The notes beneath the pieces were generated by a model, which was not told the origin of the DNA, searched no databases, and worked only from the letters and a program-made list of their open reading frames with translations. Below, in pieces: positions 4,108 through 19,570 of a stretch of DNA of 42,801 nucleotides. The stretch lies in assembly GCA_944358415.1 (NCBI GenBank), contig CALVRA010000009.1, positions 1 through 42,801 of the forward strand, written 5' to 3'. Origin of the DNA: an uncultured Bacilli bacterium. Its GTDB lineage: Bacteria; Bacillota_I; Bacilli_A; RF39; UBA660. A program made the translations under genes and the position numbers. Each line of letters starts with the position of its first letter. The first letter of the stretch is position 1.

Positions 4108-4326
4108 CTAACTATGATGTCCATATCTACGATGACTATGCTTATATTCTATTAAGCTTTTATTATCGCAAAAACCATCATTATTTTTATCTACATAATT
4201 TCTCTGATAACCACATTCATCATTTAAACATGTTTTATTTTTATTTCCATATCCAAGAGCCTTAACAGAAAAAGTAAAAACCAAAGAAATAACTAACCCC
4301 ATTAATATAACACCTAATTTTTTCAT
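4108..4326 (-). CDS. small secreted Cys/His-rich peptide with EF-hand-like loop
   Basis: The 72-residue protein has a signal peptide (residues 1-23, ending SVKALG). The short mature part holds TCLNDEC, the calcium-loop-like segment VDKNNDGFCDNK (DxNxDG) and a His-rich tail (HSHRRYGHHS). Three cysteines in the mature part and the acidic loop resemble the small 'DxNxDGxCD' secreted peptides of gut Bacillota. Metal binding is likely but not proven. Its ATG overlaps the stop of the DUF6512-like gene (ATGA, 4323-4326), so the two are translationally coupled. Function unknown. Confidence 0.7.
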   Translation of the reverse strand: MKKLGVILMGLVISLVFTFSVKALGYGNKNKTCLNDECGYQRNYVDKNNDGFCDNKSLIEYKHSHRRYGHHS

Positions 4327-4868
4327 TTATTATTTCCTTCCTTCTTTGAAAATATCTCCGTATGACCACTAAAACCATATTTATTAGATATTGGATCTTT
4401 AAATAGAAACGACTTCATCGGTAAAAGTGTCAGTACCATATAAAAACCAAATAAAATAAATAATCCTATACATGATAAATAACTAATCATAAATCCCAAA
4501 AATTCCATATCTATTATATAATAAAATGTCATTTGGCTCAAAATAATTGAAACATAAAATAAAGCAATATCAATAACTAAAATAGACCTTTTTAAAAAGA
4601 ATTTATATGTATAGAAAATAAACGGAATAACTATAATCAAAACAAGTAAACTTAAAAGCTTAGCTAAAAAATAATTACCAGAGCTTCCATATAAAAATCC
4701 ATCATATAACCCCCAAATAAAGGTGGGTGTCAAAGCAATTTTAATGTGTTCCCAAATACTTTCATTAACCGCCGTAAAAAGACCAATCACCTTATTATGA
4801 TTAGTTAAATCATAAAGAAAATGTGAAAACGTACCAATTAAAGAAATAATTATAATACTAAATATCAT
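4323..4868 (-). CDS. DUF6512-like integral membrane protein
   Basis: The 181-residue protein has about five hydrophobic segments. The N-terminal part, with GTFSHFLYDLTNHNKVIG and FTAVNESIWEHIK (residues 36-48), matches my memory of DUF6512 family proteins, which share a VNESxWEH motif with conserved Glu, Trp and His in or near the membrane. No biochemical function is known to me. It starts 58 bases after the retron reverse transcriptase with AAAGGGGG as ribosome binding site and no clear terminator between them, so it is the nearest gene that could work with the retron. It may equally be an unrelated housekeeping neighbour. Confidence 0.7.
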   Translation of the reverse strand: MIFSIIIISLIGTFSHFLYDLTNHNKVIGLFTAVNESIWEHIKIALTPTFIWGLYDGFLYGSSGNYFLAKLLSLLVLIIVIPFIFYTYKFFLKRSILVIDIALFYVSIILSQMTFYYIIDMEFLGFMISYLSCIGLFILFGFYMVLTLLPMKSFLFKDPISNKYGFSGHTEIFSKKEGNNK

Positions 4869-4926
4869 AAATTGCCCCCTTTAACTAATATATTTTTTAA
4901 TCTCTTGATTTGTTATGTGCAAATAA

Positions 4927-5877
4927 CTATAAATTATTTAGTAATTTCAATATAAATTTTCTATATTCTATAAATTCCTTATCATTATTCACCATCAAAA
5001 CAAAATTAATTTTACCAAATAAATTACACAAATAACTAAATTTATCTTTTATATTTAATTTCTTCAAATGAGAATAAATTCCATACTTTTTTATATAATA
5101 AACTTCTTGTCTAATCTTCTTTCTTTTTTTTCTCAAAACCTGTGCCTTTTCATTAACACAAATACCAGTCACAGTTTGCGAATTATTACTATAAATCACA
5201 CGTATCTTATCATAATTTAGCTGCATTCCAAGCTTCTTAAGTTCATCTTTAACTTTGTAAATAACCTTTTTCACATCAAAATCACCAGAAAAAGTCATAT
5301 CATCTGAATAACGTGTATAATTAATATTATTTTCCCCACAAAAAGCTCCAATTTTTTCATCAAAATTTCGCATAATCAAATTAGAAATATAAGAAGAAGT
5401 AGGGGCTCCTTGCGGTAAAAATTCATTATAAGTACATAAATAAGTCAATAATATTCTCACACTCTTAGGAAAATACTCTTCCAAAAAACATCTATTATAA
5501 ACATCCATAAAACTTATACTGTTAAAAAAATCCTTAATATCTAATTTTAACAAAATCTTCTTACCTAAATGTAATAAAGCATTATCTTTAATGGATTTTC
5601 CTTTAACATAAGCAGTCGCATACTTTGATACCTTAAACCCTTCTAAAACATTATTTAAAATTCTCTTTTGAATACACTTTAAAAAATAACTAGGCTCATA
5701 TATAACTCTCTTACTACCATCTTTCTTTGGTATCTCATATTTTTTATAATTACATTCTATATTATTACTAAGTATATAAAGTTTTTTAATCTTTTCTTTA
5801 TCACTCAGATTACCATCAATTAGATTAAGAGATAACAAAAATTCATTAGACTTATCTTTAGTAATATTGTCGAACAT
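4927..5877 (-). CDS. retron-type reverse transcriptase
   Basis: The 316-residue enzyme shows the palm/finger motifs of bacterial reverse transcriptases: LDIKDFFNSI, QGAPTSS and the catalytic TRYSDDMTFSG (YSDD at 190-193). Two retron hallmarks are present: NALLH (99-103, the NAxxH motif) and TVTG (235-238, the VTG motif used to recognise the msr RNA). There is no maturase or endonuclease domain, which argues against a group II intron protein. The start was moved to ATG 5877, because GAGGTGAT gives it an 8-base spacing; the GTG at 5886 and ATG at 5883 sit on top of that site. The msr-msd RNA lies directly upstream. The enzyme should make msDNA primed from a guanosine 2'-OH of that RNA. Confidence 0.93.
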   Translation of the reverse strand: MFDNITKDKSNEFLLSLNLIDGNLSDKEKIKKLYILSNNIECNYKKYEIPKKDGSKRVIYEPSYFLKCIQKRILNNVLEGFKVSKYATAYVKGKSIKDNALLHLGKKILLKLDIKDFFNSISFMDVYNRCFLEEYFPKSVRILLTYLCTYNEFLPQGAPTSSYISNLIMRNFDEKIGAFCGENNINYTRYSDDMTFSGDFDVKKVIYKVKDELKKLGMQLNYDKIRVIYSNNSQTVTGICVNEKAQVLRKKRKKIRQEVYYIKKYGIYSHLKKLNIKDKFSYLCNLFGKINFVLMVNNDKEFIEYRKFILKLLNNL

Positions 5878-5893
5878 TTTCATCACCTCTTAA

Positions 5894-6068
5894 AAGAGCA
5901 ATACCCAAGATATTGTAATATGAAAGCGTGCAATACTACATGAAATGTAGGATAAGCACGATGGAGTATTACAATCATAATGATTTAACACTCGTATAAT
6001 CATTAACTATACTTATAAATGTCCCTTAGCGACTCGCTAAAATATAAAATTAAACCACTATTGCTCTT
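5894..6068 (-). ncRNA. retron msr-msd RNA
   Basis: Minus-strand RNA of about 175 bases. Repeat a1 AAGAGCAATA (6068-6059) is exactly complementary to a2 TATTGCTCTT (5903-5894). The base after a1 is G6058, the expected branch guanosine. The msr part holds hairpin TTAGCG/CGCTAA with an AGT loop (6040-6026) and an 8-bp stem TAATGATT/AATCATTA (6005-5998 with 5985-5978). The msd part is a long hairpin: 9 bp ATTGTAATA (5975-5967 with 5920-5912), 5 bp CGTGC/GCACG (5960-5956 with 5931-5927) and a 6-bp tip CTACAT/ATGTAG with a TTC loop (5950-5936). a2 ends 8 bases before the reverse transcriptase ribosome binding site region. The layout is as in known retrons; the sequence is unlike any I can name. Confidence 0.9.
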
Positions 6069-6074
6069 AAAAAT

Positions 6075-6083
6075 ATTATAGCA
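6075..6083 (-). promoter_or_regulatory. retron promoter (extended -10)
   Basis: TGCTATAAT on the minus strand is an extended -10 element (TG at 6083-6082, TATAAT 6080-6075). A start seven bases further falls on A6068, the first base of repeat a1. No good -35 is seen; that region is occupied by the T run of the hsp20 terminator. Confidence 0.65.
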
Positions 6084-14302: not shown

Positions 14303-14520
14303 AAAAAATCACCATCCAATAAGGACGTGATTAACGTGGTACCACCTTAATTCGTAAGTAAAACTTACCTCAAAAACTATAACGCGTTACCGATATGTCT
14401 TTGCACACATAGCTCCTAAGGTGAATTCATAAAAGATTATTACTAGTTTCCACCAACCACTAGCTCTCTACAAATAATTACTTTTACTACTACGTCTTAA
14501 TCATCGCTTTTCAAATTACA
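14303..14520 (-). promoter_or_regulatory. T-box leader, phenylalanine-specific
   Basis: Minus-strand leader of pheST. It has AGAGAG followed by GGTTGGTG in stem I, specifier codon TTC (14425-14423) in the context GAATTCACC, and the T-box AAGGTGGTACCACG (14348-14335) that pairs with the tRNA acceptor end. The terminator hairpin ATCAC...GTGAT with TCC/GGA (14331-14308) is followed by seven T. Specifier TTC matches the downstream Phe enzyme. Confidence 0.93.
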
Positions 14521-19376: not shown

Positions 19377-19412
19377 GATAGCAAAGGATAGATATCAAAG
19401 GAGGTTAACCAT

Positions 19413-19540
19413 CTTCCTTAGCGCCAGAACCATAAAGGTTGACGAGGATGATAGTTATCGAATATTCGGCGGATGCTATCACGGTGGGAATCGTTAAAAA
19501 TATGACAAAACATAAAATAAACCTTATGTACAAAACATAT
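19413..19540 (+). ncRNA. glmS ribozyme/riboswitch
   Basis: The conserved core is present in order: AGCGCCAGAAC (19420-19430), GTTGACGAGGATG (19438-19450), TTATCGAATATTCGGCGGATG (19455-19475, given as position for its key ATCGAAT and CGGCGGATG parts) and a GTGGGAATCG pairing segment. GlcN6P-induced self-cleavage would fall between A19420 and G19421. The 3' boundary is approximate, because the outer helices after 19500 are hard to place. It precedes glmS, so it is a feedback switch on GlcN6P synthesis. Confidence 0.95.
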
Positions 19541-19570
19541 TTTCCAAAATAAATTGCAAAGGAGAATTTT

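Follow-up and report, generated by a model that had tools for sequence, protein, structure and literature searches.

The 42,801-nucleotide stretch of DNA analysed here (contig CALVRA010000009.1, hereafter the window) very likely carries a complete Ec107-type (Eco5) retron, located on the chromosome of an uncultured gut Bacilli bacterium; this judgement covers anatomy, membership and production of msDNA jointly. Ec107 has long been known as a retron that consists of a reverse transcriptase (RT) only and has no explained role. General features of retrons were found, namely an RT recognized by retron profiles, a1/a2 repeats with a G at the end of a1, an msr hairpin and an msd hairpin. The initial annotation had proposed a complete retron, and this proposal was borne out by an RNA model, covariation, RT phylogeny, profiles, a conserved promoter and the fold.

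Organization of the retron locus

The retron is located on the minus strand. Behind the Hsp20 terminator, which lies just outside the element, an extended -10 promoter, a1, a G, the GCGAGUCGC hairpin, a linker, the msd region, a2, a Shine-Dalgarno sequence and the RT gene follow each other in 5' to 3' direction (Table 1). The 10-base a1/a2 repeats, the G after a1, the three-tier msd hairpin and the extended -10 described initially are all present and conserved in relatives.

Table 1. Features of the retron locus in the window
Feature	Position	Strand	Basis and remarks
Extended -10, TG-N-TATAAT	6083-6075	-	Sequence; 6-nt gap to a1
a1 repeat, AAGAGCAATA	6068-6059	-	10-bp perfect pairing with a2; covarying pairs
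Candidate branch (priming) guanosine G6058, context TAG-T	6058	-	Invariant column after a1 in alignment A1
Conserved msr hairpin, UUUUAGCG-AGU-CGCUAAGG	6042-6024	-	Covariation; kept in E. coli Ec107
Linker insertion with extra hairpin, ~25 nt	5982-6006	-	Without counterpart in L250 or any other aligned relative
msd template, three-tier hairpin (9 + 5 + 6 bp)	5904-5976	-	Fold and covariation; minimum of the putative reverse-transcribed part
msd outer stem	5975-5967/5920-5912	-	Fold
msd middle stem	5960-5956/5931-5927	-	Fold
msd tip stem	5950-5945/5941-5936	-	Fold
a2 repeat, TATTGCTCTT	5903-5894	-	Pairs with a1
Retron RT ORF, 319 aa, no fused domain	4927-5886	-	PADLOC, Pfam, PDB, AlphaFold2
Approximate stretch that most likely replaced the 277-aa gene and variable second gene of same-genus genomes	4893-6074	-	blastn breakpoints

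Transcription of the retron should begin at a1 or close to it. A scan for -35/-10 consensus promoters missed this promoter, as it lacks a -35 element. Among the window copy and those of 55 relatives, 47 of 56 have TATAAT ahead of a1, at a median distance of 7 nt from the a1 core, as compared to 1 of 56 control windows, and TGn precedes the -10 in 35 of the 56. The promoter is part of the retron cassette. Translation of the RT likely starts at the ATG at 5877, which has GAGG 8 nt upstream and would yield 316 aa, rather than at the GTG at 5886.

Two msr hairpins had been annotated. The GCGAGUCGC hairpin is universal; the second one lies in the linker insertion and is missing from L250, the sister copy of the window retron. 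Relatives contain a short GGA/UCC-type hairpin ahead of the GCGAGUCGC hairpin. The msr hairpin UUUUAGCG-AGU-CGCUAAGG is likely the stem-loop recognized by the RT.

Two further structured RNAs of the window, a T-box leader before pheS (14318-14513, minus strand) and a glmS ribozyme before glmS (19409-19553, plus strand), gave clear Rfam matches and are ordinary.

Conservation of the msr-msd RNA

A 10-bp perfect inverted repeat at equal spacing occurred in 44 of 2000 dinucleotide shuffles; therefore, a1/a2 alone is weak evidence. The fold showed a z-score of -3.99, and none of 200 shuffles was equally stable. Comparison with relatives was decisive for retron anatomy over chance. The sequence ahead of the RT was inspected in 60 relatives, and a simple pattern gave an RNA set of 55 relatives plus the window (n = 56). 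The a1/a2 core, the G after a1 and the hairpin are kept in all 56 copies. Five relatives fell outside this set: in L126 the pattern is present but its core is altered, L132 and L133 have divergent RNAs that are still detected by the model, L134 has a degenerate RT with an adjoining RNA still matched by the model, and the RT of L135 is distant and does not belong to the clade. Homologous RTs without a1/a2 repeats and msd hairpin, the case that would speak against a retron, were sought; the copies of the family that were read all have the RNA, except degenerate or contig-end ones.

Over 40 copies, a structure of 39 pairs was 93.6% paired, as compared to at most 44% when the partners were slid. 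Pairs changed on both sides numbered 27 of the 39, and the covariation score was 0.319 versus at most 0.086 with slid partners. Within a1/a2, columns 7-213 were G-C in 27 and A-U in 13 copies, columns 9-211 A-U in 34 and G-C in 6. The conserved msr hairpin was paired in 98.4% of cells, with changes on both sides in six of its eight pairs; the msd helices were 93.9%, 98.8% and 89.7% paired, with compensatory changes.

A covariance model (R2) was built from 22 Bacillota relatives without the window and without Ec107. This search with relatives, which had been proposed initially, identified exactly 5895-6067 (minus strand) of the window with E = 2.9e-12. R2 also matched Ec107 (E = 6.4e-8) and the elements of Pseudocitrobacter (2.7e-8) and Budvicia (1.3e-8); retron-free and type III-A loci gave no match. 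The same architecture is recognizable in E. coli Ec107/Eco5, so the description of the RNA as new-looking did not hold. A search of Rfam found no family matching the msr-msd RNA. Hence, the remark that retrons of AT-rich uncultured Bacillota are poorly described is fair for the RNA; the RT is well fitted by an existing PADLOC profile (see below).

A second msr-msd RNA was observed in a genome with another retron (G450:C11:40373-40523, corresponding to L245:4874-5024); the contig ends soon after it.

The reverse transcriptase and its relatives

The motifs NAxxH, YSDD and VTG listed initially were found at residues 102 (NALLH, region X), 193 and 239 (region Y), respectively; catalytic motifs are intact in nearly all RTs. 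The best PADLOC profile was RT_Ec107-like (411 bits, 5.3e-124, residues 12-313), ahead of the second, RT_III-A (349 bits), by about 63 bits. Pfam assigned RVT_1, and a PDB search matched the RT of Ec86 (2.2e-35). An AlphaFold2 model based on 23 clade sequences reached a mean pLDDT of 88.8; its best PDB folds were all retron RTs (Ec86, Eco7, Ec83, Ec67). As judged from this model, a fused effector domain would not fit into the RT.

The placement of the RT in a phylogeny, likewise proposed at the outset, put it into one clade with the RT of Ec107. This clade comprised 106 RT-only sequences including the window and Ec107 (E. coli L330), with an SH-aLRT value of 89 in a quick tree, i.e., below the 95 mark. 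Just outside the clade was the type III-A RT encoded on a plasmid of Vagococcus lutrae. With RNA models trained on Bacillota, matches immediately ahead of RT genes were obtained in Listeria goaensis, Vagococcus acidifermentans, Lacrimispora and Blautia and also, among Enterobacterales, in Budvicia, Pragia and Pseudocitrobacter.

The search of E. coli was bridged via the Pseudocitrobacter element. Of 5426 complete E. coli genomes, 373 have an Ec107-type retron, in each case on the chromosome. In strain E2348/69, the element alone occupies the interval from pyrE to slmA, which in the older literature is the Ec107 site. In K-12, these two genes are separated by a 36-bp palindromic sequence instead of the retron. 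An earlier Bacillota-trained RNA model matched the pyrE-slmA element with E of ~1e-7, and the element fits retron Ec107/Eco5 as described (PMC6868368). According to its annotation, at least one E. coli copy (L331) is broken by an internal stop.

The window retron and Ec107 share the RT clade (43% RT identity) and an RNA with a GCAAUAG start, the GCGAGUCGC hairpin, an msd hairpin and a UAUUGC a2; both consist of an RT only, without effector, and replace an intergenic stretch (PMC6868368), in the window most likely one with resident genes. They differ in that the window RNA has 31% GC as compared to 57% in Ec107, and in that the window retron has YSDD instead of YCDD, a shorter msd, the linker insertion and another chromosomal site. 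The sister copy L250 (CASEAD010000144.1, uncultured bacterium) has an RT 69% identical to that of the window, a very similar ncRNA layout and likewise an RT only; it adjoins capsule/exopolysaccharide genes and is without the 25-nt linker insertion. The nearest effector-bearing RTs outside the clade belong to type III-A retrons of V. lutrae (pK136-2-B) and a Priestia megaterium plasmid, with 48.6% and 38% identity, respectively. These have PRTase_III-A and WH_III-A genes upstream of the RT, and the ncRNA models do not match them. Retron-Eco1 (Ec86) shares the RT fold and the general retron layout with the window retron, but RT identity is 29% over the fold alignment, and Eco1 has an NDT-type effector (PMC8989520).

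Insertion site, distribution and history

Genomes of the same genus contain a 277-aa gene and a variable second gene between Hsp20 and DUF6512, the 277-aa gene sitting behind the Hsp20 terminator. Homology between the window and L196, L197 and L199 in blastn ends at 6068-6075 and resumes at 4892-4895. A full RT was found in none of 43 other genomes of the genus. This layout together with the missing RT suggests that the retron most likely replaced resident genes in the lineage of the window. The Hsp20-to-DUF6512/flavodoxin site is variable within the genus (L196, L197, L199, L202), with a conserved 277-aa protein and, as second gene, a 269-aa membrane protein or a 141-aa protein. No defence profile matched the 277-aa gene, and Pfam gave only a weak sub-threshold match.

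Within the order, 70 of 385 genomes matched at E ≤ 1e-20; most matches were full-length homologues with 49-63% identity. In the search of genome contigs, a single-protein query remained without matches and an alignment query gave matches. Among RT pairs with 70-80% identity, a flanking gene was shared in 34 of 476, which shows a changing context and is not a measured rate of jumping. In another genus, the retron is located at one place, upstream of ychF. The last codons of the RT (N-K-E-F-K-T-Y-Q...) persist in the ychF promoter region of five retron-free genomes (L349, L350, L352, L355, L360), with alignment scores of 53-66 as compared to a shuffle maximum of 38. These tails are scars of repeated retron loss. 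Taken together, the replacement in the window lineage, the changing flanks and the ychF locus point to gain, vertical descent and repeated loss.

A precise target site such as a terminator palindrome, as for Ec107, was considered and could not be established: the Hsp20 terminator is kept in the window, and the retron at the ychF locus is ancestral and was repeatedly lost. In G034, a genome of the window's genus, an RT 3'-end remnant lies behind the terminator of a ribosomal-protein gene at a contig end (L209:2930-3120), a site that differs from that of the window. Viral contigs gave at most 44% identity and a phage collection at best 42%; hence, these searches gave no evidence of phage-borne copies of the clade.

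Search for an effector and alternative explanations

Clustering of genes within ~4 kb of 144 loci, near-duplicates included, revealed no family in more than 12 loci, and in an earlier set of 60 loci no family occurred in more than nine. No homologue of a PRTase or winged-helix protein was found near 123 RT-only loci, and Pfam and PADLOC profiles identified no effector among the neighbour genes. The stand-alone RT is the rule for the whole clade. The initial description of the enzyme as stand-alone is supported. Near the window retron neither a type III-A PRTase nor a WH gene was found, i.e., it does not classify as a type III-A retron. A type III-A PRTase in trans was absent from 24 of 25 retron-bearing genomes including the window's own, the exception being a weak partial match (4.4e-4); this search covered one known effector type, and an effector in trans could be missed in the window genome, which is 75.8% complete. 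Retrons without clear effector association have been noted (PMC8867640); with Ec107 being RT-only, an effector-less clade across two phyla is partly known already.

That the whole clade, in Bacillota and Enterobacterales, works without any dedicated effector protein, the RT-msDNA being active itself or acting on a core host protein, is conceivable but somewhat less likely than not. A tripartite retron in which a toxin restrained by RT-msDNA is hidden in a neighbour or an unlinked gene is a fairly unlikely alternative. Most characterised retrons are tripartite (PMC12548924), and a multi-pass membrane protein, DUF6512 (4323-4868), is encoded ~60 bp downstream on the same strand; however, DUF6512 is found at the same place in retron-free genomes of the genus and not beside the retrons of relatives, and it was rejected as effector. 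The absence of a recurring gene cluster and of a type III-A PRTase in trans, and the position of Ec107 alone between pyrE and slmA, also argue against a hidden toxin.

A decaying or selfish remnant, i.e., a functionless retron that is without its former effector and is maintained by transfer and drift, is a rather improbable explanation. It would agree with the patchy presence in the order and the lack of full copies elsewhere in the genus, with the repeated loss seen in the RT tails at the ychF locus and in G034, and with flanks that are rarely common even between closely related RTs. However, the RNA structure is kept by compensatory changes and is recognizable across two phyla, and catalytic motifs are intact in nearly all RTs, indicating long-term selection on msDNA production; broken copies (L101, L134) are few. 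The explanation by an ordinary RT, whether group II intron maturase-like, DGR or DRT/Abi, next to hairpins that arose by chance can practically be dismissed. RVT_1 is common to all of these enzymes, and weak matches to group II and DRT profiles were obtained, but retron profiles and folds scored far higher and neither a DRT nor a fused domain was found. The conserved msr-msd RNA with its covariation, the match of a model built without the window and the RT tree refute this explanation.

Discussion

The Ec107-type reading allows a mode of action to be proposed. The extended -10 promoter would start the transcript at a1, a1 and a2 would pair, and the C-terminal region of the RT would bind the conserved GCGAGUCGC stem-loop. 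On the template immediately 5' of a2, DNA synthesis could then be primed by the 2'-OH of G6058; the RT would copy the msd hairpin, and host RNase H1 would trim the RNA to leave a branched msDNA of roughly 72-110 nt. Priming, reverse transcription of msd and trimming are proposed by analogy with validated retrons (PMC6868368, PMC8989520), and msDNA of Ec107 itself is long established (PMC6868368). The position of the candidate branch G agrees with the description of retrons in PMC6868368. The commonest priming context given there is TAGC; that of the window retron is TAGT, as in many relatives, which speaks somewhat against the reading.

The msDNA should comprise at least 72 nt (5904-5975), so the 60-70 bases predicted initially are probably too short. 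By analogy with Ec107, with a product of 107 nt that should reach ~12 nt beyond the outer stem, a length of about 85 nt may be expected; copying of the linker insertion would raise this to as much as ~110 nt. The linker insertion could also alter termination.

The RT-msDNA complex presumably either works on its own or cooperates with a host protein from another locus, and its task is most probably the sensing of stress or phage. Ec107 is expressed more strongly under phosphate starvation and in stationary phase (PMC6868368), which leaves room for a role other than defence. The clade most likely arose from retrons similar to type III-A by loss of the PRTase and winged-helix genes.

Beyond the known facts on Ec107, the conserved RNA and the wide spread of the lineage deserve to be recorded. 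Ec107 is not an oddity: it is part of an old, widespread, effector-less lineage with more than 100 relatives and one conserved RNA. Furthermore, the covariance model provides a practical finder for Ec107-type retrons, for which Rfam has no family; the retrons that can be found in this way include many small AT-rich msDNA producers with a possible use in genome editing. The lineage also makes it testable which job an msDNA has when there is no toxin to restrain; if the clade indeed works without a dedicated effector, the tripartite toxin-antitoxin scheme would not be universal for retrons.
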